Assembly (NCBI GenBank): GCA_937862805.1 | Contig: CALMDO010000083.1 | Coordinates: 1 to 33,931 of the forward strand | Direction: 5' to 3' | Source of the DNA: an uncultured Bacteroidota bacterium | Lineage (GTDB): Bacteria > Bacteroidota > Bacteroidia > Bacteroidales > FEN-979 | Length of the DNA stretch: 33,931 nucleotides | Shown: in pieces, positions 5,433 to 31,268 of the stretch | Layout of the letters: every line of letters starts with the position of its first letter | Position numbering within the stretch: the first letter of the stretch is position 1 | Notes under the pieces: generated by a model | Told to the model about the DNA's origin: nothing | Database searches by the model: none | Seen by the model: the letters and a program-made list of their open reading frames with translations, nothing else | Translations under genes and position numbers: made by a program

Positions 5433-5510
5433 TCTGTGAAATCTTTCACAACAAAACCCCTTCCGATACTCAAAAAAAATCTAATTTTGCGGGTTCAAAC
5501 TTCCATTACT

Positions 5511-8500
5511 ATGTATAAAATCACAAAACATCCGATCCTCGATATCCCCGCGGATGAGAAGACCCGGTTCCTTTTCGGGGGGCAGATCATTGAAGGAAAC
5601 AAAGGCTTTACGATTGCAGCAGCCCTGCACCAGGCAGGTTATCCTGTTCACAGCCACAGCCTTACCAACCGTGAACGCAGCCTGGAATGTGGCATCGGTA
5701 AATGCGGTGCATGCGAAATGCTGGTGGATGGCCAGATCAAAAGGATCTGTATCACTCCGGTGAATGGTGTGAAAGAGGTCAGTGAAATCCCTTCAGATTA
5801 CGCCCCGCAGCGGGTTCCCGTAACAAAAGAGGTACCCCTGAATGTTTATAAAACCACCGTTGCCATCATCGGCGCCGGACCTGCGGGTCTTGCGGCTCGT
5901 GAAGAGCTGAACCGGCACCAAATCCCTAACCTGGTCATCGACAACAACGATAAGATCGGCGGTCAATTCCTGATGCAGACCCATCAATTCTTCTTTTTTG
6001 AAAAAGTTCAGAAATTCGGCGGAATGCGTGGTTTTGATATTGCAAAGACGTTAGCCGGCGACAATCACGAAGGGATATTCCTGAACTCAACCGTATGGGA
6101 TATCCTCGAAGGGGGAAGAATAGCCGTGAAGAACATCCGTACCGGAGAGATCTGTTTTGTCGACACCGAATACCTCATCGTCGCCACCGGAGCCGTACCC
6201 TTCATGCCGGCCTTTGAAAATGATGATTTGCCAGGTGTGTACACCGCGGCCGTCGTACAAAAAATGATGAACAACGAGTTGACCCTGCTCGGTAAAAATG
6301 TCCTTACCGTCGGAGCCGGGAATATCGGTTACCTCACCTCCTACCAGCTCATGCAGGCCGGCGCAAAAGTCAAAGCCATCCTCGAAGCGCTTCCCACGGA
6401 AGGCGGGTTCCCTGTTCAGGCTAACCGGGTGCGGCGACTGGGTATCCCGATCCTTACTTCCCACATGCTCCTCAAGGCGATCCCGAATGAACATCATGAC
6501 GGCATCACGGGCGCTGTGATAGCCGAATGCAGCAACTTCAAACCCATACCGGGTACTGAAAAGGTGATCGAAGGAATCGACGCGATCAATATTTGCACCG
6601 GACTGGTACAGGATGACCAGTTGCTGATTAAAGGAAACGAGATTTTCGGCAGAAATTGTTTCGGTGCCGGAGATGCCATCCGTATCGGAGAAGGCACCAG
6701 CGCTGTTCTCAGGGGTCGTCAGGCCGCTTTCGACATCCTTCAGGAGATGGGCGAACGGATCGACTATGATGAATTCCTCTCGCTCTCGAAAGAATACATC
6801 GACTCGCAACAACATCCGGTCAGGGTAATCAATGAACCCTCCAGCCCTTCAGAAGGCAGGATGAACGAAAAAGGTTTCGTAATGATCGACTGCCTTTATG
6901 GTTTTGCATGTAACCCCTGTGCTTTCTCCTGTCCCCATGGAGCCATCACCAAATCGTCCACCAGCACGGTTCCCGAGATTGATTTCGGGAAATGCATCGG
7001 CTGTATGGATTGTGTTTATCAATGTCCCGGACTGGCCATCTTCGGGTACAACCTTAAAAAAGACTGGCTTTTCCTTCCCATCGAATACGAGGTGGCTGAG
7101 CAATCAGAATGTTACCTGGTCGATAACAACGGGAAACAACTTGGCGAAGGCATCGTTGAAAAGATCCTCCGCAAGCCCAATAAAACCAATATTGCCAGGG
7201 TTCGTTCGACAACCCTCCATGGAACTGACATGAGTCGTGTCAGGGGTTTTATTGTAAAGGAAAACTACCCGGAACCCTTGATTTGCAAGCCATACCAACA
7301 TCAGCCCAAAGAAAAAACTTACATCTGTCACTGCGACGATGTCACCCTGGAGGAGATCCTGGAGACCATTGGCGACCGGAAATTCATCTCGGTGGATGAA
7401 GTAAAGCATACTACACGTTTGGGAATGGGCGCTTGTCGCGGAAAACGGTGCATCAAACGGCTGAAATCGACCCTGGCCGGTTCGGGCATTTCCATCGTAG
7501 GAGAGCCTACGCCCCGGGGGCCATTATCAAACCAGGTCTCTATGGGAGAGCTCTATCCCCGGTCGGTGCATGAGCGCGTGATCACCGATGTGAACGGGAG
7601 GAAATGCCGTAAAATTAAAGTGAAATCGGTGGTAGCCGGCGGGGGTATGGCAGGAAGTTCATTGTTCCGGTACCTCAGCGAAGCAGGGTTGAAACCGGTG
7701 CTCATCAACCATGGGCGCGGTGCTTCCTGGCGCAACATTGCAGGAGGCCGGCCCAATTTCTCGGTTCCCGAACTCTCCGATATCGCTGTTCATAATCTTG
7801 AGATATTTAAGAAGTTACAGAAAATCCACAACATCGATTACCGGCCGATCCTCTATGTCACTTTCGCCCACAACGACGAGATGTACCGGGCTCTGGAAGC
7901 TTCGATGGCATGGTCGAATGCGTACATGGTCGAACCCGGTGATTTCCGGAAAGAGATCGCCCCGGGGCTCAATCCCGCTCTGACAACTTACCAGGCAGCT
8001 TTGATCACGCGCGATTGCTGGCAGGCCACACCCGGTCGGGTCATCGATCTGGTCAGAAGACTGGGGATCAACCACGGCGGGATGGTGGAGGAAGATTGTA
8101 AAGTAGTGGATGTCAACCGTGTTAATGACCGTTATTTTATTCTGGTCCAGGACCACCGGAAAGAGTATGTCGAATATGAAACACCTGTCTTCGTCAATGC
8201 TCTCGGTCCTGAAGGTGAAAAATTTGCCCGTCACCTGGGTATTGAAACGGGCTTGTTCCCGGTCAAACATCAGGCCTTTATCACCCGTCGTTTACCCATG
8301 ATGGGAAAAGAGGGAACACCTCTTCCGATGTTGATCGATCGCAGGAGATACAAGGGTTTTATCGCGGTTTACGGGCAACAGTTAGCCGAAACCGGACAGA
8401 TTATCGGTTGCGCTTCTCCCGCTGTAGAACCCATGGAAGCCAGGAAAAACATCAAGATCAACTCGGAAGATTTTGTTGAGATCGCTTCCGAGATCTTCAC

Positions 8501-8744
8501 CAACTGGCTCCCTGATCTGTCGTCGGTCGGGTTCCAGGCTGTGTGGGCCGGTTATTATGTTGAACCGCGGATGATCATTGATCCGGAGCTGGGTCTTTTC
8601 CTGGGATTGCGGGGTCAGGGGTTCATGTTAAGCCAATACCTGGCGAAGATGTACGTTGACAAGCTCACCGGTAAACCGGTGCCTTCCTATTTCGACCGGT
8701 TGAAAATTTCCGGTGACGGAATGCCTGAAAAAGCCTTCAAATAG
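5511..8744 (+). CDS. Multi-domain redox fusion: Fer2_4 [2Fe-2S] + FAD/NAD pyridine nucleotide-disulfide oxidoreductase + 4Fe-4S + BFD-like [2Fe-2S] + DAO-type FAD oxidoreductase
   Basis: ORF 5436-8744; likely start ATG 5511 (MYKITKHPILD). Motifs: LECGIGKCGACEMLVDGQIKRICITP; VAIIGAGPAGLAA; ACNPCAFSCPHGAI and KCIGCMDCVYQCPG; ICHCDDVTLEEI...GMGACRGKRC; VVAGGGMAGSSLFRYLSEAG. Confidence 0.85.
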   Translation: MYKITKHPILDIPADEKTRFLFGGQIIEGNKGFTIAAALHQAGYPVHSHSLTNRERSLECGIGKCGACEMLVDGQIKRICITPVNGVKEVSEIPSDYAPQRVPVTKEVPLNVYKTTVAIIGAGPAGLAAREELNRHQIPNLVIDNNDKIGGQFLMQTHQFFFFEKVQKFGGMRGFDIAKTLAGDNHEGIFLNSTVWDILEGGRIAVKNIRTGEICFVDTEYLIVATGAVPFMPAFENDDLPGVYTAAVVQKMMNNELTLLGKNVLTVGAGNIGYLTSYQLMQAGAKVKAILEALPTEGGFPVQANRVRRLGIPILTSHMLLKAIPNEHHDGITGAVIAECSNFKPIPGTEKVIEGIDAINICTGLVQDDQLLIKGNEIFGRNCFGAGDAIRIGEGTSAVLRGRQAAFDILQEMGERIDYDEFLSLSKEYIDSQQHPVRVINEPSSPSEGRMNEKGFVMIDCLYGFACNPCAFSCPHGAITKSSTSTVPEIDFGKCIGCMDCVYQCPGLAIFGYNLKKDWLFLPIEYEVAEQSECYLVDNNGKQLGEGIVEKILRKPNKTNIARVRSTTLHGTDMSRVRGFIVKENYPEPLICKPYQHQPKEKTYICHCDDVTLEEILETIGDRKFISVDEVKHTTRLGMGACRGKRCIKRLKSTLAGSGISIVGEPTPRGPLSNQVSMGELYPRSVHERVITDVNGRKCRKIKVKSVVAGGGMAGSSLFRYLSEAGLKPVLINHGRGASWRNIAGGRPNFSVPELSDIAVHNLEIFKKLQKIHNIDYRPILYVTFAHNDEMYRALEASMAWSNAYMVEPGDFRKEIAPGLNPALTTYQAALITRDCWQATPGRVIDLVRRLGINHGGMVEEDCKVVDVNRVNDRYFILVQDHRKEYVEYETPVFVNALGPEGEKFARHLGIETGLFPVKHQAFITRRLPMMGKEGTPLPMLIDRRRYKGFIAVYGQQLAETGQIIGCASPAVEPMEARKNIKINSEDFVEIASEIFTNWLPDLSSVGFQAVWAGYYVEPRMIIDPELGLFLGLRGQGFMLSQYLAKMYVDKLTGKPVPSYFDRLKISGDGMPEKAFK

Positions 8745-9524: not shown

Positions 9525-10583
9525 ATGGATATTCCTTTTGCTGCCACTACTCATCCGAAGATCCTGTTGACCGGCGCAGCCGGGTTCTTAGGTCGCGCCA
9601 TCATTCACGAACTGTTGTCAGAAAAATCTCCTTTGAGACCAGACTTGTTGGTTTGCTATGATCTGCAAGGCAACCCGGGGTTCAACAATCCTGCAATCCG
9701 ATGGATAGTGGGGGATGTAAGAGATGTGGAAAAGTTACAGGCAGCCTGTCAGGGGATCGATATCGTCATTCACACGGCAGCGGTAGTCGATTGGGGGACC
9801 AAACCGGAACAGGATATCCTGGATGTCAATTACGGAGGCACTTTAAATGTTCTGGAAGGATGTTTGTCTCAACAGGTACCCTTCATGGTTTATACCAGTT
9901 CGCTGGATGCTATTTACACCGGGCAGGCCATGAGGGACATCGACGAAACAATTTCTTACCCTGATGTTCATCCGAATTCCTATTGCAAAAGCAAGTACCT
10001 GTCGGAAATAAAGGTGATGGAAGCCAACAACAGCGCCCTGAAAACCTGCATTTTGCGCCCTTCTGATATTTACGGTGAAGGAGATCCCTTCCACATCGGG
10101 TCGTTGATCGACATGGCCCGGGGCGGGTTTTATGTCAGGCTGGGAGACGGCAGTGCAAAATCGCAGCATGTTTATGTGGGCAACATGGCCTGGGCGCATG
10201 TTTTAGCAGCCCATGCTTTGTACACGGGAAATCGAAGGGTCCCCGGAAGCATCTATTTCATCACTGACGGCGCTCCTTCGAATTTCTTTCACTTTTTCGA
10301 TCGTGTCGTAGAGAAGGCCGGTTACAAAATATGGCCAGTCAACCTCTGGATCCCCAGAAACACTGCCATGATAATGGGGATCCTCTCTGAAGGGATCGCA
10401 CGGCTGGTGCGCCCTGTGAAAAAATATACACCCAAATTCAGCCGTTTCGCAGTACGATATACCTGTAACGATTTTACCTTCAAGACCAGCAAGGCCAGGG
10501 ATGAGTTCGGGTTCTATCCGCGGTACAGCCAGGAGGAAGCCATTGACCGAACCGTTACTTTTTATCAGAAAGCCCACAGGTAA
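9525..10583 (+). CDS. NAD-dependent epimerase/dehydratase, 3-beta-hydroxysteroid dehydrogenase-like SDR
   Basis: 352 aa; TGAAGFLG nucleotide-binding motif, YTSSLDAIY, YxxxK in SYCKSKYLSE, LRPSDIYGEGD, VYVGNMAWAHVLAAHAL - similar to sterol-type 3beta-HSD/ERG26-like proteins. Confidence 0.8.
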   Translation: MDIPFAATTHPKILLTGAAGFLGRAIIHELLSEKSPLRPDLLVCYDLQGNPGFNNPAIRWIVGDVRDVEKLQAACQGIDIVIHTAAVVDWGTKPEQDILDVNYGGTLNVLEGCLSQQVPFMVYTSSLDAIYTGQAMRDIDETISYPDVHPNSYCKSKYLSEIKVMEANNSALKTCILRPSDIYGEGDPFHIGSLIDMARGGFYVRLGDGSAKSQHVYVGNMAWAHVLAAHALYTGNRRVPGSIYFITDGAPSNFFHFFDRVVEKAGYKIWPVNLWIPRNTAMIMGILSEGIARLVRPVKKYTPKFSRFAVRYTCNDFTFKTSKARDEFGFYPRYSQEEAIDRTVTFYQKAHR

Positions 10584-10626
10584 AAAAGCAATATTTCGTA
10601 TATTAGCCACCCTAACCGTCCCTGTC

Positions 10627-12279
10627 ATGAACACCAATGACAATAACCTGGTTGCCCTCTTTCAAAATGCAATCCGCAACAATTGGGAATTTCGATCGCT
10701 TTCCGATTACGGAGGCGACAGTTATACATACCGTGAAATCGGGACAAAGATCCTGTGGTTACACCGTTATTTAAAGGCAGCCGGGGTGAGGAAAGGAGAC
10801 AAAGTCGCCTTGCTTGGAAAAAATTCTGCCCATTGGGGTATTGTATACATCGCCACGGTTACTTACGGCGCCGTGATCGTACCCATTCTACCCGATTTCA
10901 AGCCTGCAGATGTCCATTCCATCGTAACCCATTCCGATGCCCTGGTCCTGTTTGTCGAAGAATCGATTTATAAGGATCTCAACCCCGAATCCATGCCCCT
11001 GATCGGGATCATCCTGAACATAACCGATAACAATGTTTTGTTCAGCCGTACCCTGCTGACCGAAGAACGGATCAGGATTCCTGCCGCTGAGACGGTAAAC
11101 ACCCCCATGGAAATAACTCCGGAATTGATCAGTTTCGACCCTTCCGGCCCCGAAGACATTGCCGTAATAAGTTACACTTCAGGAACCACAGGCTTTTCGA
11201 AAGGGGTTGTACTACAACACAAAAGTCTCCTGGGAAACATACTGTTCGCACAGCGTAACATGCCCCTTAACCCGCAGGATAAGCTGCTCTCTTTCCTCCC
11301 GCTGGCCCACACCTATGGCTGTGCTTTTGAATTCCTTTTCCCTTTTACGCTGGGCTGCGACATCACCTTTCTTACAAAAACACCTTCCCCAAAGATTATC
11401 ATGCAGGCCTTTCAGGAGATCCGCCCTGCCCTGATCCTCTCCGTCCCGCTGGTCATTGAAAAAATCTTCAAAACGCAGATCCTTCCCTTGTACCGTAAAC
11501 CAGGGCTCCGCACCATGATCCGTATCCCGCTGCTGAACAAGATCATCTATGCCAAGATGCGACAAAAGTTAATGGAGGCTTTTGGAAGTAACTTCAGGGA
11601 ATTGATCATCGGTGGAGCTCCCTTCAACACCGAAGCTGAAAAATTCTTCAAAAAGATCAATTTCCCTTTTACCATCGGTTACGGGATGACAGAATGTGGT
11701 CCGCTGATCTCTTATGCTTCGTGGAATACAACCAGGCTGGGAGCTTCGGGCCGTATCGTGAACGAATTGGAGGTAAAGATCGATTCTCCCGATCCGATCC
11801 GTCAGGCCGGGGAAATCCTGCTGAAGGGGAACCATGTCATGGCGGGCTATTATAAAAATCCGGAAGCTACGCGTGCAGTGATCGATAATGAGGGATGGTT
11901 GCATTCGGGCGATCTCGGGGTAATAGACACTGCGGGGAACATATACATCCGCGGTCGCAGTAAAAGCATGATCCTCGGAGCCAACGGCAAAAACATCTAT
12001 CCCGAAGAGATTGAAGCCTATCTGAACAACCGCTTCATGGTCATGGAATCGCTCGTCATTGACCGGGAAGGAAAGCTGATCGCCCTGATTTATCCCGACC
12101 TTGATGCCGTTTCCAGAGCTGGTTATACAAAGGAACAGTTGCCCGAAATCTTCGCCGGCTACATCCGCGATCTTCAACATCACCTCCCAAAATATATCAA
12201 AGTAAATGATTTTGAGATTGTTGCCTCAGAATTTGAAAAGACCCCCAAGAAAAGTATCAAACGGTTTTTGTACCAATAA
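10627..12279 (+). CDS. AMP-dependent synthetase/ligase (long-chain acyl-CoA ligase-like)
   Basis: ORF 10501-12279; likely start ATG 10627 (MNTNDNNLVALFQ). Motifs ISYTSGTTGFSKGVVLQH, GYGMTECGP, HSGDLGVIDTAGNIYIRGRSKSMILGANGKNIYPEEIE. Confidence 0.9.
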   Translation: MNTNDNNLVALFQNAIRNNWEFRSLSDYGGDSYTYREIGTKILWLHRYLKAAGVRKGDKVALLGKNSAHWGIVYIATVTYGAVIVPILPDFKPADVHSIVTHSDALVLFVEESIYKDLNPESMPLIGIILNITDNNVLFSRTLLTEERIRIPAAETVNTPMEITPELISFDPSGPEDIAVISYTSGTTGFSKGVVLQHKSLLGNILFAQRNMPLNPQDKLLSFLPLAHTYGCAFEFLFPFTLGCDITFLTKTPSPKIIMQAFQEIRPALILSVPLVIEKIFKTQILPLYRKPGLRTMIRIPLLNKIIYAKMRQKLMEAFGSNFRELIIGGAPFNTEAEKFFKKINFPFTIGYGMTECGPLISYASWNTTRLGASGRIVNELEVKIDSPDPIRQAGEILLKGNHVMAGYYKNPEATRAVIDNEGWLHSGDLGVIDTAGNIYIRGRSKSMILGANGKNIYPEEIEAYLNNRFMVMESLVIDREGKLIALIYPDLDAVSRAGYTKEQLPEIFAGYIRDLQHHLPKYIKVNDFEIVASEFEKTPKKSIKRFLYQ

Positions 12280-20989: not shown

Positions 20990-23900
20990 TCAGTTCCTGT
21001 TCATGAATTCATCCAGCCTTCTCCTGAAATCCGCTTGCTCACCGGGAGTCATGAGATAATCAAACCTCCCGAGCGATTGCTGAAGGTCATAGTAGCTTTT
21101 GATGAAAGTATAAAAAGCGGTATTCACCGCCATTGCGGAGGTGAGGTTTTGTTGCTGGGCATCCAATACATCCAGGATACTTTTTTGCCCCAGGAGGTAT
21201 TGGTTGTCGACAATCTCGAAGTTCCTGGTTGCTGCAACCTCCGCAATTTCCATTTGCTTGTAATCATAGTAAGCTGACATCAGTTCCGAAAGGTTCGACA
21301 ATACGGCTGTTTCCAGTTTTTCCATGGCTGCTTGTTTTTCGGTCCTCATTTGAACCAGGTTCAGCCGGGCTTTTGCTACCGTGGTGTTGTTTTTCAACCC
21401 CGTAAATAAAGGTATCTCCACTTTTGCCATAAGTGACCATGCATAACCGGGATACGAAGAGGTGATCCCGCCAGGCAGCTCGTAGGATGGTTGATAAAGC
21501 CGGTTGGCATAACTCCCGGAAGCAGTGGCCACCGGGATGTATCGGGAAACAGCGCCCGACCTCCAGGTGCGTTCCTGGGCACTGATAAGGAAATCATATT
21601 GCCTGAGTACCGGAGAATTGGAAGCGCCTTCCTCTACCATAAACCGTCCCAGCTTCTGAAGACGGATGGGATCCTCCAATAGTTCCATGAAGGTTGAATC
21701 CATAACCAGTAATCCCGAATCTTCCAGCCGGAATTCAGCCAGGTCATAAGAGGTCAGGGTTTTTACATGAATCAGTTGAACCAGTTGGTACGCAAGCCTG
21801 GCGATTGAAGCATAGGAACTGATCACATTCTTTTTCGATCGGGCCGCTTCGATCTCCCATCGCAACACTTCATCCTCTCCGGCCGAACCGGTCTCCTTTT
21901 TCATTTTGGCCACTTCCAGGTTCGACCGGGTGATGATCAGGTTGTTGATAAACAGATAGAAATTTTTTTGTTGTTCCATGATACTCAGGTAAGTCTGGGC
22001 CACCTGGTTTCCTATATCCAGCTTATCGTTGACCAACCCTTCTTCCCTGGCCTGTTGCTGTAACCGGGTAATTTTAAGATCTGACCACAAAGGTTCCGAC
22101 CAGAGTACCTGGGTGAGGTTAGCGTTGGCAGTGACCGACTGCGGGGGCATGTAATTCACCGGATCGTTCAGCGTTCCCGAAGCATCGATGCCCAGATAGG
22201 GCAAAAGAGCAGAACGGGCAATGCTGAAATCTTTCTCGCCTGCCAGCACTTCCAACCTGCGGGCTACCAATTCACGGTTGCTGTCGAGGGCCACATTCAT
22301 CAGATCAGGAAGGGAAATGAACCGGGCCGCGGTGTCCTGTTTCATGAGATCCACGATGGTTGCTTCAGTGAAAAGATCCCAGGAAATCACCTCCAGTCCT
22401 AATTTACCAAAAGTACTCAGGTTCAGGAACAATCCTTTCCCCATCAGCAGTTCCACCGGGAGACTCCCGGCATCATGCCCCAGGAGTATCTGCTGAATAT
22501 TCAGCGCGATTCTTTTTGATAACCGGCCCAACATGCTCGGGTAGACCGATGCAAGCACCCCCTCCTCCACCGCTGACTGGTCAAAACCGAAACTCGGTAT
22601 CTTGCGGGCATTCAAAGAATCGACCAGTTTCCTATATTCTTTATCCGGTAACCTGAACAACGGATCGAGGTAGATGGCATCGGCCCCGGTTGGGATTGCC
22701 CGGAGGATCGTTTCAGCGGTACTATCAGCCATAATCAGGTTGATCCTTACATCCGAAAGGGTGTCGTAAGCTGATACCGGCCGGTTTTCGGGGTTGAGGA
22801 TGGCATAATACTCCCTCGGGGCAACCAGTGAAAGGTTCCTGAAAGAGACTATTTTCTTCAGCTCCTTCAATTCGCTCTCCATGGAGGGCTTCAACTGAAT
22901 ATAAGAGAGGTTAGGTATTCCACTGGCCCCGTTGATCAAGGGGATGTTTTGCAGGTCGTGGTTGATGACCAACCCCGCGATGGCCGGCTTTGGTAAGTTC
23001 TTCCGGTGAGCCAGGTCGTGCGACGCCAGCACCCCGATAGTGACGATCAGGTCAACTGCGGGATCTTTTAAAATCCTTGAATTCAACGCTGAAATGCTTT
23101 CAGCGCTCCAATTTCCCGTTGTTTGTGAAATGTCAACAAAGTCGACAGTAACTTGTCCGGCCATCAATCCCCTGACTTCACGTACAATGGCCTCCTGGAT
23201 CACCGCGTTGCTTTTGGCTTTTCCGTCGTACACCACAGCCAAAGTGATCTTCCCCGATCCGAAAGTAATGGGTTCCTGGGCCTGTACAGGGATCACAGTT
23301 GACAAACAAAACAGGATGGGTACGACAAGATGTGTCGTTTTGATCCGGATGGAAGACCGGGAGGAGCGATCGAGGAAATGGGCCATTTTTTCATAGATGA
23401 TCGGCACAACGAACAAGGTCAGCAACATCGAACTGGTAAGCCCTCCAATCAGTACCCATGCCAGTCCGTTTTTCCATTCGGCCCCTGCGCCTGATGCGGT
23501 AGCGATCGGAAGCATACCGAAAATCATGGCAAAGGTGGTCATGAAAATCGGACGGATGCGCATTCTTCCGGCATCGATCAACGATGCCCGGATGGATTCA
23601 CCGGCAACCCGTCTGTCGTTGGCGCGGTCGACGATCAGAATGGCGTTCTTTGATACCAATCCGATCATCATGATCAAACCCAGAATGGAAAAGACGTTGA
23701 TGGTGTTGCCAGTCAGGGCCAGCGCCAGGATAGCTCCGATCAGCGCTACGGGAATGGAAAATAAAACCACCATCGGATAAGCAAATGAATCATAGAGGAT
23801 TACCATGATGAAATAGACAAAAATGATCCCGGCTATCAAGGCAACGAAAAGGCTCAGGAAGGAGTTTAACATCTCATCCTGATCACCCCCGAAGCCTATC

Positions 23901-26422
23901 CGTGTCCCTTGCGCCTTGTTGTTGCCCAGGGTGGCCATGAATCCCTGAATGACAGAACCGCTCGGTGAACCGTCGGTATAAGCGCTTACCGTGGTGAGAG
24001 CGTTGCGGTTTTTCCGTTCCAGCTTCGTGGGTCCGGAAGATTGGTATATGGAGGCAAATTGCTGCAATTCGATGATCTCCCCTTTTGTATTGATAAAGGA
24101 TAGATGGCTGAGATGGTCAGGATTGCTTTTGTCGAACTTGTCGAGCGCAACACGGATATCGTACTGATTCGATCCTTCGCGGAACTTGGAGTCGTTATTA
24201 CCGGTGAGGGCTACCTGGAGAGTCGATCCCACGTCGGTGACCGTGAGTCCGAGCGCCGCCATCTTTTGCCGGTCGATCTCGACCCGTGTCTCGGGGTTAC
24301 CACGGGAAGCAGCAAATTTAAGGTAGGTCACCCCCGGAGTACGTTCCAACGTGCGGGCCACACGATCCGCCGTTTTCATGATGCTGTCGTAGCTGATCCC
24401 CGTGATCTGAACACTGACAGGAGCCCCGCTGGTACTCCCCGTGAAATCGATCTGGTTGATGAAGACTTTAACCCCCGGCAGATCCGAAGTCAATGCTTTG
24501 ACCTTTTCTCCCAATTCAGCAGTGGAAAGAGAGCGCTCTTCCTTAGGGCACAGGGAGACAACAATCTCGGTCTGGTTATCGGTTGAAACCCCGTCGTCGC
24601 CCTTCCCGATATTGGTCAAAATACTGGTGACCTCCGGAAGGGAGGCGATCCGTTTCTCAACCAACTGAGTTTGCCGGTTATTCCGCTCCAGGGTCGTTCC
24701 GGGAGCATATTCAAGGCTTACCGAAAACTGGCTCCGGTCGGTCTGTTTCATGAATTCGAAACCGGTGATCCCTGCCACAGGGATCATCAGCGTGATGACC
24801 AGCGCTGCCGAAACCAGATAGAGCACTTTGTTCGGATGATCGAGGCTCCATTGCAGGAGGCGTGTGTAAAAGTCAGTCACCCGGGTAAACCCGCGTTCGA
24901 AGAGCCTGCCGAAACGGTTCAGAAGACTGGTAGAATCGTACGATTCGCGTCTTGCAAAACGCGAAGCAAGGATCGGCGTCACTGTGAAAGAGACCATAAG
25001 GCTGGTCAGGGTAGAGACCAGGACAATAATCGAAAAACCCCTGACGATATCGCCGATCAGCCCGGTGGTCAACGCAAGGGGGACAAAGACCACCACATCC
25101 ACAAAAGTGATGGAGACGGCCGCGAATCCGATTTCGGTTCGTCCTTTCAGCGCGGCGACCCGTTTTTCTTCTCCCTTTTCCAGGTGATGATAGATGTTCT
25201 CAAGCACCACGATGGAGTCATCGACCAGGATGCCGATCACCAGCGATAAAGCAAGCAAAGTAAAGAGATTCAGGCTCATTCCGAAGATCCACATCACCAC
25301 GAAGGCTGTTGTCAGGGAACAGGGAATAGAGACCATCACGATGAGTGCGGTCCTGAATGAATGGAGAAAGAGGAACATCACCAGGGCCACCAAAAGGATG
25401 GCAAGCCCCAGGTCTTCCATTACCGAGCGGGCTGCTGCCATGGTATAGACACTCTGGTCATCCGCGATGTCAAAATGAAGACGGATGCCTTGGTAATCTG
25501 CCTCCAGACGGGTCAATTCCTCGCGCACTGATTCACAGACCTTCACCATGTTAGCATCATTTTGTTTCTGGATCTCCAGCCCCAGGGCATTGACCCCGTT
25601 GAAACGGCTGATCCGGGTAGCATCTACCGTTCCATCCTCCACTTCAGCCACATCCCTTAACCTGACCTCCCCGCCCCGGGAAGAATACCCAACCACCAGG
25701 TTTTTCATCTCTTCCAAAGAAGCCACCTTACCTGCCACCCTGACTACGTACTGGTAAGCGGGATCCATTAGTTTTCCGGTTGGGAAATCCAGGTTTGCCG
25801 TGTAGATCGACTGTGCGATCTGGCTTATTGAAAAACCATAAGATCTTGCTTTCTGGGCATCGACATTGATTTTGATCTCTCTTTTGGATCCACCGGTAAT
25901 GGTGATATTACCGACCCCCTGGACCCTTGAAAGGGTGGGTTTGATCTGATCATCCACCAGAGTGTAAAACCTGGAAGATGGCATAGTCGAAGTCAACGAC
26001 AACCGGAGCACCGGCATCTGACTGGCAGAGTAAGTCAGCAGCGAAGGGGTTTTGGTGTCTTTCGGAAGGGTTGACAGGATCTCGTTCACCTTCCGTTGAA
26101 CATTCTGCACCGCGGTATTGATCTTTTCCGAACGGTAGAATTCAAGAAAAACGATGGAGAGCCCTTCATAAGAGACCGAGGTTACATTCTTCACTTTTTC
26201 AATCCCCGATACAGCATCTTCGATAAGCCGTGTGACATTGCTCTCTACCTCTCCCGGTGAGGCCCCGGGGTATATCGTCTGTACCGTTACATAGGGCGCA
26301 TCGATTTTAGGTAACAGTTCATATCCGAGTTGGTAATAGCCGAACACGGCCAACATGCCCAATGCCAAAAAGATGACAATAATAAATGAGGGTCTTTTTA
26401 TGGATAATTCAGTGAGCGACAT
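20990..26422 (-). CDS. Three-module fusion: HAE1/AcrB-type RND efflux permease + ABC_sub_bind-like periplasmic domain + TolC-type outer-membrane factor
   Basis: Single 1810-aa ORF. About aa 1-1020 RND (TVQTIYPGASPGEVESNVTRLIEDAVSGIEKVKNV; GFAAVSITFVDVVVFVPLALTTGLIGDIVRGFSIIV; GLIMMIGLVSKNAILIVDRAND); then KITLAVVYDGKAKSNAVIQEAIVREVRGL...DLIVTIGVLASHDLAHRK...KPAIAGLVI (ABC_sub_bind-like); then ISLPDLMNVALDSNRELVARRLEVLAGEKDFSIARSALLPYLGIDASGTL...GQKSILDVLDAQQQNLTSAMAV (TolC). Confidence 0.88.
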   Translation of the reverse strand: MSLTELSIKRPSFIIVIFLALGMLAVFGYYQLGYELLPKIDAPYVTVQTIYPGASPGEVESNVTRLIEDAVSGIEKVKNVTSVSYEGLSIVFLEFYRSEKINTAVQNVQRKVNEILSTLPKDTKTPSLLTYSASQMPVLRLSLTSTMPSSRFYTLVDDQIKPTLSRVQGVGNITITGGSKREIKINVDAQKARSYGFSISQIAQSIYTANLDFPTGKLMDPAYQYVVRVAGKVASLEEMKNLVVGYSSRGGEVRLRDVAEVEDGTVDATRISRFNGVNALGLEIQKQNDANMVKVCESVREELTRLEADYQGIRLHFDIADDQSVYTMAAARSVMEDLGLAILLVALVMFLFLHSFRTALIVMVSIPCSLTTAFVVMWIFGMSLNLFTLLALSLVIGILVDDSIVVLENIYHHLEKGEEKRVAALKGRTEIGFAAVSITFVDVVVFVPLALTTGLIGDIVRGFSIIVLVSTLTSLMVSFTVTPILASRFARRESYDSTSLLNRFGRLFERGFTRVTDFYTRLLQWSLDHPNKVLYLVSAALVITLMIPVAGITGFEFMKQTDRSQFSVSLEYAPGTTLERNNRQTQLVEKRIASLPEVTSILTNIGKGDDGVSTDNQTEIVVSLCPKEERSLSTAELGEKVKALTSDLPGVKVFINQIDFTGSTSGAPVSVQITGISYDSIMKTADRVARTLERTPGVTYLKFAASRGNPETRVEIDRQKMAALGLTVTDVGSTLQVALTGNNDSKFREGSNQYDIRVALDKFDKSNPDHLSHLSFINTKGEIIELQQFASIYQSSGPTKLERKNRNALTTVSAYTDGSPSGSVIQGFMATLGNNKAQGTRIGFGGDQDEMLNSFLSLFVALIAGIIFVYFIMVILYDSFAYPMVVLFSIPVALIGAILALALTGNTINVFSILGLIMMIGLVSKNAILIVDRANDRRVAGESIRASLIDAGRMRIRPIFMTTFAMIFGMLPIATASGAGAEWKNGLAWVLIGGLTSSMLLTLFVVPIIYEKMAHFLDRSSRSSIRIKTTHLVVPILFCLSTVIPVQAQEPITFGSGKITLAVVYDGKAKSNAVIQEAIVREVRGLMAGQVTVDFVDISQTTGNWSAESISALNSRILKDPAVDLIVTIGVLASHDLAHRKNLPKPAIAGLVINHDLQNIPLINGASGIPNLSYIQLKPSMESELKELKKIVSFRNLSLVAPREYYAILNPENRPVSAYDTLSDVRINLIMADSTAETILRAIPTGADAIYLDPLFRLPDKEYRKLVDSLNARKIPSFGFDQSAVEEGVLASVYPSMLGRLSKRIALNIQQILLGHDAGSLPVELLMGKGLFLNLSTFGKLGLEVISWDLFTEATIVDLMKQDTAARFISLPDLMNVALDSNRELVARRLEVLAGEKDFSIARSALLPYLGIDASGTLNDPVNYMPPQSVTANANLTQVLWSEPLWSDLKITRLQQQAREEGLVNDKLDIGNQVAQTYLSIMEQQKNFYLFINNLIITRSNLEVAKMKKETGSAGEDEVLRWEIEAARSKKNVISSYASIARLAYQLVQLIHVKTLTSYDLAEFRLEDSGLLVMDSTFMELLEDPIRLQKLGRFMVEEGASNSPVLRQYDFLISAQERTWRSGAVSRYIPVATASGSYANRLYQPSYELPGGITSSYPGYAWSLMAKVEIPLFTGLKNNTTVAKARLNLVQMRTEKQAAMEKLETAVLSNLSELMSAYYDYKQMEIAEVAATRNFEIVDNQYLLGQKSILDVLDAQQQNLTSAMAVNTAFYTFIKSYYDLQQSLGRFDYLMTPGEQADFRRRLDEFMNRN

Positions 26423-26437
26423 AGGAAACGGTTGATG

Positions 26438-27487
26438 TTAGTGGATGATCATGACCCTTGATTGGTCGGTGAGATTGTTCTGGCCGCTGGTGACAACCAA
26501 TTCTCCCTCTTCCAGTCCGTTAAGGATCTCCAGCAGTTGGCCCGATTCTCTGCCAATGGTCACGTTGCGAAGCCGGGCGATTTTGCCTTGTACCACGAAA
26601 ACCTGCGCATTTCGGACGCTCCCGGTAAGCGCTTCGCGGGGAATGACAAGGGCTTTCCTGGCTGTGATGGAGGTGAAATTGACCCGGGCAAACATGCCTC
26701 CTTTGAGAGGAAATTGCGATGAGTTGGGCAACCTGATCTCTACCGGGAAGGTGTGATCATCCATCGCTTTGGAAGAGATGTTGTCGACATACCCGAAAAA
26801 TGAACGACCCGGATAAACATCGGTGGAGATCTCCACCGAATCACCCGATCTGAGCATGAAAACATCTTTTTCCGAAACATTCACCTTGACCTTCAGCGTA
26901 GATATATCGACAATGCTTCCAAGGGTGCTGTTAAGTTGAGCATAAGAACCCTCATTGACTTTCCGTGCGTTGATGATGCCGTTGATGGTGGCTTTAACCC
27001 GTGTATCATCCAGGGACTTTTGAGCCCTTGTCATTTCATTTTCCGCCGATTGCATGTCCAGCCGGGAGAGATCAAGTTGCGCGGCAGAGATTGAATTTTG
27101 TTCATACAGTGTTTTATTACGCTCGAAATCACGTTTCGATTTGAAATAGTTGATCTGCTGCTTGGCCATATCTGACCGCAGGACAAGGTCGTCGATTTCT
27201 GCCAGAACCATCCCTTTTCTGACCTGATCTCCCACCTTGAAATGAACGGCTTTGACGATTCCCTGGGCTTCTGAAATGATATCCACATCGTTGTCAGGAT
27301 CGATCACCCCCACCATGCTCACTACGTTGGATAAAAGTTGCATTTTTATTTCGATCACGTTGACCGGAATGTCGTTAAGCACCTCGCCACGGGATTTGTT
27401 TTGGCTTTTTTTACCCAGCAGAAATACAAGGATTACAACCAGAAGAATGACCGCTGTGGATATTACAGGAAAGATAAATCGCTTCAT
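26438..27487 (-). CDS. RND efflux periplasmic adaptor subunit (HlyD/AcrA-like membrane fusion protein)
   Basis: ORF 26438-27562; likely start at 27487 (MKRFIFPVISTAVILLVV). GIVKAVHFKVGDQVRKGMVLAEIDD lipoyl-like, coiled-coil hairpin, VIPREALTGSVRNAQVFVVQ. Confidence 0.9.
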   Translation of the reverse strand: MKRFIFPVISTAVILLVVILVFLLGKKSQNKSRGEVLNDIPVNVIEIKMQLLSNVVSMVGVIDPDNDVDIISEAQGIVKAVHFKVGDQVRKGMVLAEIDDLVLRSDMAKQQINYFKSKRDFERNKTLYEQNSISAAQLDLSRLDMQSAENEMTRAQKSLDDTRVKATINGIINARKVNEGSYAQLNSTLGSIVDISTLKVKVNVSEKDVFMLRSGDSVEISTDVYPGRSFFGYVDNISSKAMDDHTFPVEIRLPNSSQFPLKGGMFARVNFTSITARKALVIPREALTGSVRNAQVFVVQGKIARLRNVTIGRESGQLLEILNGLEEGELVVTSGQNNLTDQSRVMIIH

Positions 27488-27590: not shown

Positions 27591-30563
27591 GTGATCAGAT
27601 TTCTGTTAATAGTCCTCCTGCTGCTGATATGTTCCTTCAAAGGTCAGGGACAGAAAACCCTTCCGGTTTCTATACAGGTAAAACCCCTCAACGTAGAGGA
27701 GGGTCTCAGCCAAAGTACCGTGAACCAGGTATTTCAGGATCACAACGGGTTGATCTGGGTCGTCACAGGTGGCGGTTTGCAATATTTCGACGGGAGCGGT
27801 TTCCGTTCCTTTGACCCGCCCGGATATCTTTCCACGGCAATCGGCGGGAACATCATTCGGGAGATCGTTGAGACAGCCAGCGGAGAGCTCCTTCTTTCCA
27901 CTCCGTCCGTTCTGCTCAGTTTTAACAGTTCCTCCGGCGCTTTCAAGGTTCCTGGTCAACGATCAAGGCAGTTCCCCTTCCTTTTTACCACATCGCTGAA
28001 AGGGTTCCCTTTGTGCTGGTTATCGAAAGATGGTCTCTGCATTGTACAAGAAGACACCATCCGCCCGTTACCGTTGATCTTCGACAGGAATAACAGGTTG
28101 CCTCTTCCCTTCGTTCCCCTGAAATCGTGTTATGCTCCTGACGGTAAAATCTGGATTGCCGCGGAAAACGGGCTTTTGCAGATCGATACGGTGGCCACCA
28201 AAGGAAATTTGGCATATCCTGCACGATGGTTCCCCTTTCCTTCCCCGATCCGGGATATGGTCAGGGCTCCCGGTGGACAGGTTTTCCTTTTAGCCGGAGA
28301 AGATATCTGGAAATTTACCTCATCGGGATCTTTCGAAAAGTTGAACAATCATGAGATTAAAAGCCCCGACCGGATCTTTATCGACCGAAACGGAACGTAT
28401 TGGATTACAGATTACACCCGTGAAAATCTCTACCGGATCTCCAACGGGTTATGTGAAAAGGTAAAACTGTTTAACCGTGAAGGAAAACATACCGACACCC
28501 TCCGGGTCAGTATCCGCAATTTTTTTGAAGACCGGCGAGGCAACATCTGGATTGGGACCGATGGCGCGGGTTTACTCTGGTATTCACCGGCGTTGGTTAC
28601 CTTCAACCTTTTAAAGATTGGTTTTACCCGTTGTATCCGGGAATTCAACGGGGATATATGGGTCGGAACCTTTAAAAAGGGGTTGTGGCGACTGCCACCC
28701 GGCTTGCAAGGTGCTCAAAGGGTCAATCCCGCCCTTTTTACCCATCAGATGAACTTTTTGGATATGACCGTCGACCGCGATCAGCGCCTCTGGATAGCTA
28801 CCGAAGGAGCCCTCTTTGTACTGGACAAAAGGGGTGTAATCGTTGCACAGATGCCACTCAATGCCCGCTCCGCTTACTTTCTGGAAATCGCCGATGGCCG
28901 GTTGTTTCTGTCTGCCTATGACCGGCTGTATGCCTGCAATTCCGGGAACCGGCCGCACCTGACGCTCCTGCGCAGCCAAAGCCAGGTCCGGCAGTTGATT
29001 GAATGGAAAGGTTGCTGGTGGGTGGCCGGCTACTCGGGTTTGTACCGGTATGACCGCAAAACAAAAGTGGAAGACGCATTGAATTTCGACAAGAGCTTTC
29101 TTCTCTCTTCTGCCCAGGTATATGCGTTACTTCCTGTCGGAGAAACCCTTTGGGCCGGAACAGATCATGGCATTGTTTGTTTTACGCCGGAAGGGAAAAC
29201 CCTTCAACCGACCAGGTTATTTGAAAACCTGAAGAATGAGGTGGTGTATTCGCTGCTCACCGATCAACAGGGACGGATATGGTTTACGAGCAATAACGGG
29301 ATCGGTACCATCGCGAAAACCGACGGCCGGATTGTCCGTTTTTCATTGCAAAACAACCTCCAATCCACGGAATTCAATTATAATGCCGCCTTTGCTGCCA
29401 ACGATGGTTGGTTTTATTTCGGCGGGATCAATGGGATCAATGGCTTGATGACCAGCCATTTTAAATTTTTTCATTCACTGCCATCGGTGCGTTTGCTCAC
29501 CCTTCACCTCTCCGATACCTCCTTTACGGATGGGATTCCCCCGGCCCATGTTACCCTTCGGCTGGACTGGAAGCGGGCCCATTGCAGTGGAACTGTTTTC
29601 ACCCCGGATTATCTCCCTGATGGGACCGCCACCTATGCTTTCTTCCTGAAAAACTACCAGTCGGGATGGAGCCAGCCTTCAAAATTCCCGGCCTTCAGCT
29701 TCCGTAACCTCCCTCCGGGAACATACCAGCTCTGGGTACGATGTACCGACGGTTTTTCAAACCAGGGAACAGCTCAATGTGTCCTGACCCTCCAGATTGT
29801 TCCTCCTTTTTGGAAAACCTGGTGGTTCGGACTGCTCCTTACCCTCCTGGTGGTCGGTATCAGCATCATGGGCGTAGTACTTATCCAAAGAGAGCGTTAC
29901 AACCGGCGACTGATCGTTCTCGAACACCGCAATGCAATCGACAGGGAAAGGCTGCGCATTTCGCGTGACATGCATGATGAAATCGGCGCCAGTCTTACCC
30001 AAATCGCCATCCTGAGTGAAATAGTAAAAAAACAGAAAGAGATTCCCGAGCCAACCCTGAAGTTGATCGGCCGGATATCCGAAATCTCCGGAACCGTTGT
30101 GGACGATATGGGAGAGATCATCTGGGCCATGAACCCGCGCAATGACAACCTTCCGAGTTTTGTCTCCTACCTCCGTCAACATACCTCCGAATACCTTACC
30201 GTAGCCGGCCTCGCTGCCGATTTTAACTTCCCGGAAGAGGTTCCCGACAGGGACATGACTTCAGAACAGCGGCGAAACATCTTCCTGGTGGTCAAGGAGA
30301 CTCTTCACAACGTGGTAAAACATGCAACCGCTACCCGTGCAGCAATCCGGTTGAATTGGTCCGACGACAGGCAAAAGCTTGAAATTGAGATCACCGATAA
30401 CGGACAGGGATTCGACCTTGAGGCAAAAAGTGCAACAGGCAACGGTCTGACCAATATCCGGAAAAGAATCGACAGCCTGGGCGGAACCTGCACCATCGAA
30501 ACAAACCCTGGAAAAGGAACACGCATCCGGTTCACAGTTCCCCTCAGCCAGATTCCAAAATAA
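27591..30563 (+). CDS. Two-component sensor: regulator propeller repeats + Y_Y_Y domain + TM + HisKA_3/HATPase_c histidine kinase
   Basis: 990 aa from GTG; signal peptide; EGLSQSTVNQVFQDHNGLIWVVTGGGLQYFDG, NFFEDRRGNIWIGTDGAGLLWY, SLLTDQQGRIWFTSNNG; RISRDMHDEIGASLTQIAILSEI; EITDNGQGFD...GNGLTNIRKRIDSLGG. Confidence 0.92.
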   Translation: MIRFLLIVLLLLICSFKGQGQKTLPVSIQVKPLNVEEGLSQSTVNQVFQDHNGLIWVVTGGGLQYFDGSGFRSFDPPGYLSTAIGGNIIREIVETASGELLLSTPSVLLSFNSSSGAFKVPGQRSRQFPFLFTTSLKGFPLCWLSKDGLCIVQEDTIRPLPLIFDRNNRLPLPFVPLKSCYAPDGKIWIAAENGLLQIDTVATKGNLAYPARWFPFPSPIRDMVRAPGGQVFLLAGEDIWKFTSSGSFEKLNNHEIKSPDRIFIDRNGTYWITDYTRENLYRISNGLCEKVKLFNREGKHTDTLRVSIRNFFEDRRGNIWIGTDGAGLLWYSPALVTFNLLKIGFTRCIREFNGDIWVGTFKKGLWRLPPGLQGAQRVNPALFTHQMNFLDMTVDRDQRLWIATEGALFVLDKRGVIVAQMPLNARSAYFLEIADGRLFLSAYDRLYACNSGNRPHLTLLRSQSQVRQLIEWKGCWWVAGYSGLYRYDRKTKVEDALNFDKSFLLSSAQVYALLPVGETLWAGTDHGIVCFTPEGKTLQPTRLFENLKNEVVYSLLTDQQGRIWFTSNNGIGTIAKTDGRIVRFSLQNNLQSTEFNYNAAFAANDGWFYFGGINGINGLMTSHFKFFHSLPSVRLLTLHLSDTSFTDGIPPAHVTLRLDWKRAHCSGTVFTPDYLPDGTATYAFFLKNYQSGWSQPSKFPAFSFRNLPPGTYQLWVRCTDGFSNQGTAQCVLTLQIVPPFWKTWWFGLLLTLLVVGISIMGVVLIQRERYNRRLIVLEHRNAIDRERLRISRDMHDEIGASLTQIAILSEIVKKQKEIPEPTLKLIGRISEISGTVVDDMGEIIWAMNPRNDNLPSFVSYLRQHTSEYLTVAGLAADFNFPEEVPDRDMTSEQRRNIFLVVKETLHNVVKHATATRAAIRLNWSDDRQKLEIEITDNGQGFDLEAKSATGNGLTNIRKRIDSLGGTCTIETNPGKGTRIRFTVPLSQIPK

Positions 30564-30578
30564 CACCAACGTGTGATT
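30562..30578. promoter_or_regulatory. Candidate response-regulator operator, copy 1 (AACACCAACGTGTGATT)
   Basis: 15/17 identical to 31289-31305; located 49 nt upstream of the response regulator ATG. Confidence 0.4.
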
Positions 30579-30626
30579 CCTTATGAAAAGTTGCTTTCTA
30601 CCTTTACATCTCATTAATACCCCTCC

Positions 30627-31268
30627 ATGAACGACGAAATCAGGATCATGATCGTGGAAGACCAGGAACCCGTGAGAGAAGGGCTGCGCGTTCTGATCAA
30701 CGGATCTGAAGGGTACCGTTGCATAGCTGCCTGCCGTACAGCCGAAGAAGCGCTCGATTGTATCGGTGATGAACTCCCTGACGTGGTACTGATGGACATT
30801 AACCTCCCCGGCATGCGCGGCACCGAATGTGTTGTCCATATTAAAAACAGCCACCCTGAAGTCCAGGTGATGATGCTTACCGTTTTCGAAAACAACGAAG
30901 AGATATTCACCTCCCTGGAAGCCGGCGCCACCGGTTATCTCCTGAAAAAAACACCCCCTGCCCAATTGCTCCAGGCCATCTCCGACCTGGTCAAAGGTGG
31001 CTCCCCCATGAGCAGCGAAATTGCCAGGAAAGTGGTGCAACGTTTCCACCTATCCTCCCCTTCCCGCTTCCCCGAAGCAAACCTGACCTCCCGCGAAGAG
31101 GAGATTCTCTCCTACCTGGCCAAGGGATATCTCTATAAAGAGATCGCTGCCAGCCTCTTCATTAACATCGAGACCGTCAGGACCCATATCCATAAAATCT
31201 ACCAGAAACTTCAGGTCCGTACCCGTACCGAAATGCTCCTGAAATACCTTCGCCAACCAGAACAGTGA
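30627..31268 (+). CDS. LuxR/NarL-family response regulator
   Basis: 213 aa; receiver domain VEDQEP, VVLMDINLPGMRG, GYLLKKT; HTH LTSREEEILSYLAKGYLYKEIAASLFINIETVRTHIHKIYQKLQVRTRTEML. Confidence 0.95.
   Translation: MNDEIRIMIVEDQEPVREGLRVLINGSEGYRCIAACRTAEEALDCIGDELPDVVLMDINLPGMRGTECVVHIKNSHPEVQVMMLTVFENNEEIFTSLEAGATGYLLKKTPPAQLLQAISDLVKGGSPMSSEIARKVVQRFHLSSPSRFPEANLTSREEEILSYLAKGYLYKEIAASLFINIETVRTHIHKIYQKLQVRTRTEMLLKYLRQPEQ

Follow-up and report, generated by a model that had tools for sequence, protein, structure and literature searches.

Can the inner-membrane pump and the outer-membrane channel of an efflux system be made from one reading frame, and do they then remain one protein? The question is raised by a window from an uncultured freshwater Bacteroidales bacterium (the window is the whole 33,931-nucleotide stretch of DNA that we analysed). 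Positions 20990-26422 of its minus strand form a single open frame of 1810 aa (ATG at 26422, stop at 20990-20992), which carries, in order, an HAE1-type RND permease, an ABC_sub_bind-type domain and a TolC-type channel. The matches to ACR_tran, ABC_sub_bind and OEP were all above the curated Pfam cut-offs and, together with the frame check, confirmed the original prediction of one uninterrupted frame with these three parts.

The fused frame, its permease and its adaptor

The genome of the window is a draft of 329 contigs, and a sequencing or assembly artefact that had fused two genes therefore had to be ruled out. The three-domain frame is kept in 11 relatives from three Bacteroidales genera. 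Ten of them were found among 61 genomes as long open frames, nine complete at 1816-1924 aa and one truncated by the end of its contig; their fusions are 67-74% identical over the aligned length. The eleventh, L062 (genome G562), belongs to another family of the same order. A query of the genome contigs with the single protein gave no match; copies were found when the same contigs were queried with an alignment. Copies that carry a name come chiefly from metagenome-assembled genomes of uncultured Bacteroidales or Bacteroidetes. Although the fragmented draft would speak for an artefact, 11 other assemblies from three genera show the same junction and frame, and we rejected assembly error as having a negligible chance of being true. 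The loss of a stop codon through misassembly, which the original prediction had named as a possible refutation, is excluded by the same open frames.

The permease (aa 1-1015; 23378-26422, minus strand) has 12 transmembrane helices and the proton-relay residues D401, D402, K925 and R957. It is complete at aa 1-1011, with an ACR_tran match to aa 4-1011 (846.6 bits), and D401 and D402 (the Asp-Asp pair in TM4) and K925 (the Lys in TM10) are invariant across 30 aligned RNDs. The NCBIfam profile RND_permease_2 scored 774 bits and the AcrB-type profile 530, versus 424 for CusA/CzcA; the RND half thus sits on the HAE1 rather than the heavy-metal side, which bears out its earlier assignment. Like HAE1 tripartite pumps of the AcrAB-TolC or MexAB-OprM kind, the locus combines an RND with the Asp-Asp/Lys relay, an adaptor and a channel of the TolC/OprM fold. 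In contrast to those pumps, which are encoded by three separate genes, it has the RND and the outer-membrane protein (OMF) in one frame and a binding domain on the OMF.

Only the periplasmic adaptor (RND_mfp/HlyD_D23; 26438-27487, minus strand) is encoded separately, as had been proposed. It scored 215.6 bits with RND_mfp, lies 15 bp upstream of the fusion gene and is the upstream gene of a two-gene unit with it. The order adaptor-fusion is found in 11 out of 11 relatives, with 64-74% identity of the adaptors, and these two are the only genes that stay together in all of the relatives' loci. Beside the pump operon, and divergent from it, lie a propeller sensor kinase (Reg_prop, Y_Y_Y, HisKA_3) and a LuxR-type regulator (27591-31268, plus strand). 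A link of these genes to the pump was considered and is unsupported, with no homologues in the fetched loci of the relatives.

The binding domain and the origin of the channel half

The middle domain (aa 1057-1366; 22325-23254, minus strand) is a type I periplasmic-binding domain of the ABC_sub_bind type, recognized by PF04392, by a profile and by Foldseek. On the full frame the best PF04392 stretch was aa 1262-1344, at 30.8 bits (cut-off 25.9), and the slice containing the domain alone scored 35.6 bits. Among 29 homologous domains 17 matched PF04392 at E 1e-3, and a profile of the 29 found 3lkv (E 1.6e-13), 6hni and 3lft by sequence. The same three structures were found by Foldseek for the first half of an AlphaFold model of aa 1049-1810 (pLDDT 84.9, 33 homologues), at TM-scores of 0.74-0.78 by target length. 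They are aromatic amino-acid binders (TrpX-like 3lft, CD0873 6hni and VC_1101 3lkv) with bound Tyr in CD0873, Phe in VC_1101 and Trp in SP1069 (3lft) (PMC6816091), and share both fold and sequence family with the domain of the window. The selectivity residue Glu263 of CD0873 aligns, in our reading of the profile alignment, with Asp1281 (PMC6816091), which is invariant in ten aligned fusions. This replacement suggests a pocket that may have been kept but changed, conservation of the pocket being readable at one or two residues only; no ligand is named here.

Unlike the ABC_sub_bind binders, the domain is attached to a channel and has no adjacent ABC permease or ATPase gene: none was seen among the window neighbours scanned, and its partners are the adaptor and the RND. 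The domain is therefore a member of ABC_sub_bind by descent and not by role.

The channel itself (aa 1367-1810; 20993-22324, minus strand) is of the TolC/OprM type. Pfam OEP matched at 97.7 bits, with aa 1596-1784 as the best stretch, and Foldseek for the second half of the same model found OprM (3d5k, E 1.4e-17) and TolC (1ek9), within a range of E 1e-15 to 1e-17.

In a survey of the phylum the binding domain was present in 16 of 396 genomes beyond that of the window, always in a frame too short to include an RND. Within the sample of the order, five genomes have the form without RND, and G562 is the only one apart from that of the window to have the fused form. In all 22 loci that we read (L046-L061 and L063-L068) the domain is followed by TolC, usually in a protein of about 800 aa; an adaptor gene and then an RND gene come after the channel gene in 21 of them, the exception being L051, which gave no adaptor or RND match. 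The proteins of about 800 aa start with N-terminal signal peptides, most of which end in xAQ, and are scattered across many Bacteroidota families. No description of this OMF class was found in the papers searched.

The binding domain thus belongs to the channel: it forms the N-terminal part of an OMF type that is widespread and, in most genomes which have it, encoded by a gene of its own. The view of the domain as an independent insertion between the two was rejected, since it travels with the channel; the functional position 'between' the two that had been proposed for it accordingly gives way to that of an N-terminal OMF domain. The original prediction had also allowed that homologues might uniformly be two genes; this is not so for the close relatives, which are fused, and does hold for the channel half across the phylum.

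The OMF of the window is built like these proteins, which have about 800 aa and a signal peptide, but they are encoded by separate genes placed first in OMF-adaptor-RND operons, and the RNDs of those operons are only 23-26% identical to the RND of the window. We consequently rejected a derivation of the whole fusion from this type of operon. HAE1 pumps of the order, on the other hand, are 41-47% identical to the RND of the fusion, and most of their operons have a TolC that lacks the binding domain. Because of this difference in identity, the fusion is best described as a chimera, in which an HAE1 pump with its adaptor is joined to the channel of another type of operon.

A probable internal signal peptide at the junction

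The sequence that joins the pump to the binding domain resembles a signal peptide. A basic stretch similar to an n-region (aa 1011-1028; 23339-23392, minus strand), seen in the sequence and the alignment, is followed by a hydrophobic h-region (aa 1029-1044; 23291-23338, minus strand) and by a predicted signal peptidase I site, A1048|Q1049 (VQA|Q; 23276-23281, minus strand), identified by motif and alignment. In Bacteroidetes, cleavage by signal peptidase I leaves most substrates with an N-terminal Gln, which is later cyclised (the Q-rule; PMC5837995, PMC10653852). A1048 and Q1049 are invariant in 11 aligned sequences, and L062 likewise has AQ. The columns of the h-region around the invariant Ala-Gln are hypervariable, with an entropy of mostly 1-2.4 bits. 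By alignment, all 12 three-domain fusions have the n-region, the h-region, small residues at -3 (A, V, S or T) and -1, and Gln at +1. The signal peptide is internal, after a 12-TM protein, rather than at an N-terminus; in the unfused homologues the N-terminal signal peptide ends at the equivalent place, mostly in xAQ.

In an AlphaFold2 model of aa 1-1058 the RND is confident to about aa 1020 and folds without aa 1026-1058, which stay below pLDDT 50, and the h-region shows no confident packing on the RND bundle. A segment foreign to the pump would be expected to behave in this way; with only 11 informative rows for this segment, the low confidence is weak evidence. On the best reading, the junction between pump and channel is a retained signal peptide with a predicted Q-rule site for signal peptidase I.

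The same signature recurs in other RND-OMF fusions. We assembled 52 fusions, of which 12 have three domains and 40 are RND-TolC fusions without the binding domain (39 of CusA/CzcA type, including one on contig C219 of the host, and a second host fusion on contig C184). A strict motif, a hydrophobic stretch followed by [AVSTGLICN]x[AGS]|Q in an alignment-anchored run, was found at 49 of the 52 junctions versus 11 of 669 hydrophobic segments within the RND parts of the same proteins, a contrast that is still large, although its P value should not be read literally, the motif having been defined after the junctions had been viewed and related sequences not being independent. The three remaining junctions all keep the Gln after the hydrophobic run, with A, S or T at -1. 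In L133, a CusA neighbour pair that is not fused, the N-terminus of the TolC gene product ends in a similar signal peptide, LPLQA|QQ.

Four groups carry the signature: that of the window, L162 (HAE1 with plain TolC), L108 and the CusA group. Their RNDs are 22-26% identical to each other, except for the window and L162 (45%), of which only the former has the binding domain, and their channel parts are about 20-28% identical or cannot be aligned. At least four RND-OMF fusion events thus appear, by these comparisons, to have been independent.

The CusA/CzcA-type fusions of Bacteroidota (about 1440-1520 aa) resemble that of the window in that a single frame encodes RND and then OMF and contains the same internal signature, but have a heavy-metal-type RND and no binding domain, and apparently arose in separate fusion events. 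The RND of the window is only 25.8% identical to that of L086, a CusA-type fusion of the same host, and the window fusion falls outside the CusA/CzcA-TolC type. RND-TolC fusion is not new in itself. The original prediction had left open that the architecture might already be common, and this applies to the form without binding domain, which is common in Bacteroidota, and not to the three-domain form; the latter is rare among the genomes surveyed, in line with the view that a binding domain between pump and channel is unusual. The two further RND-OMF fusions of the host, L086 (CusA-type; G000:C219:30510-33596) and L108 (another RND type; G000:C184:15280-18282), both have an internal junction similar to a signal peptide.

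Proposed processing of the fusion

We propose, with a probability of roughly three in four, that the 1810-aa frame encodes a polyprotein, from which signal peptidase I is predicted to release pump and channel in equal numbers. The RND half would insert into the inner membrane with its C-terminus, after TM12, in the cytoplasm, and the next hydrophobic segment would act as an internal signal peptide that returns the chain across the membrane. Signal peptidase I would then cut after Ala1048, exposing Gln1049. The freed OMF of 762 aa (binding domain and TolC channel) would trimerise in the outer membrane and the RND in the inner membrane, with the adaptor from the preceding gene connecting the two. 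One frame would thereby give pump and channel at 1:1, as two trimers require. The channel would carry the binding domain on its periplasmic part, where the domain probably binds a small ligand, to be delivered, sensed or used for gating; this role is the least certain part of the model. What we observed is the frame, its three parts and their conservation, and the signal-peptide signature with its recurrence; from these we infer that the chain is cut, that pump and channel are made in equal amounts and what the binding domain does.

The main rival is an uncut chain, in which aa 1029-1044 form a permanent 13th transmembrane helix and all three parts function tethered to each other at 1:1. The single frame in all relatives agrees with this, as does a hydrophobic helix where the topology needs one; a 13th helix is in fact needed in any case to place the OMF part in the periplasm. 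A transmembrane helix, however, needs neither an invariant Ala|Gln nor the (-3,-1) rule, although the conservation of Ala and Gln could in principle have another cause than cleavage, and the segment is hypervariable, with no confident packing in the model. Geometry also argues against an intact chain. The N-terminus of TolC lies far from the inner membrane, given the dimensions of tripartite pumps. The linkers of a few residues that flank the binding domain seem too short to span the periplasm to this point, and those of the CusA-TolC fusions, which do not even have the binding domain as a spacer, appear too short for an uncut chain to reach the outer-membrane channel. Cutting is therefore favoured over a tether, and we consider the uncut chain unlikely.

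A minor rival, which we consider very unlikely, is that the OMF is also, or instead, made from an internal translation start near the junction, the signal peptide then acting as an ordinary N-terminal one. All 11 three-domain genes checked have an in-frame ATG 36-52 codons ahead of the site, several CusA-TolC fusions keep a Met right before the signal peptide, and the channel gene of the unfused pair L133 begins at that place. The ATGs of the three-domain genes, however, are in non-homologous columns (1013 or 1016/1017), just past TM12, and no start near the h-region is conserved in this family. Furthermore, internal initiation alone would not require the frame across the junction to be open, as it is in all relatives.

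The predicted cleavage by signal peptidase I thus changes how two earlier proposals are to be read. The 'one polypeptide' stands as one frame, but one mature protein is very improbable in view of the conserved signal peptide and its Q-rule site. The fixed pump:channel ratio is retained as an idea, with equimolar synthesis rather than a tether as its presumed basis. Bradyrhizobium FbcH (cytochrome b/c1) reportedly offers a parallel, as a chain of an inner-membrane and an exported part with an internal signal peptide that is cut by signal peptidase, processing having been shown experimentally; the proteins are unrelated to those of the window, and cleavage is experimental there and predicted here.

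More broadly, it seems somewhat probable that the RND-OMF fusions of Bacteroidota, formed several times independently, are polyproteins processed by signal peptidase I at an internal Q-rule signal peptide to give equal amounts of pump and channel, and that this lineage took over from a foreign operon a channel whose binding domain is of the aromatic-amino-acid type, so that the exit duct of its pump has three ligand sensors. Our literature search found no paper that treats such fusions as polyproteins or deals with signal peptides inside them, and the accessible part of a 2021 Chem Rev review does not discuss RND-OMF fusions of this kind; as far as the literature searched shows, neither the internal Q-rule signal peptide nor its recurrence has been described. 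If the proposal is true, many of the 'single-chain RND-TolC pumps' of Bacteroidota are polyproteins, with consequences for their annotation, tagging, purification and modelling. The Q-rule would also extend to internal sites, and there would be a simple way to match the numbers of pump and channel. A pyroglutamate N-terminus on the channel is a clean prediction that could be confirmed in existing proteomes. The OMFs with a binding domain, in turn, suggest that some outer-membrane channels form a class that carries an appendage for ligand binding.

Two other parts of the window also drew attention. A frame of 1102 aa (5436-8744, plus strand) combines a 2Fe-2S domain (Fer2_4), Pyr_redox_2, a BFD-like 2Fe-2S domain and an FAD-dependent DAO domain, and resembles three subunits of the HcnABC/opine-oxidase type fused in one chain. 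At 9525-12279 (plus strand), a 3-beta-HSD/2-alkyl-3-oxoalkanoate reductase gene (OleD-like, below cut-off) overlaps that of an AMP-binding ligase, a pair reminiscent of OleCD of olefin hydrocarbon biosynthesis.
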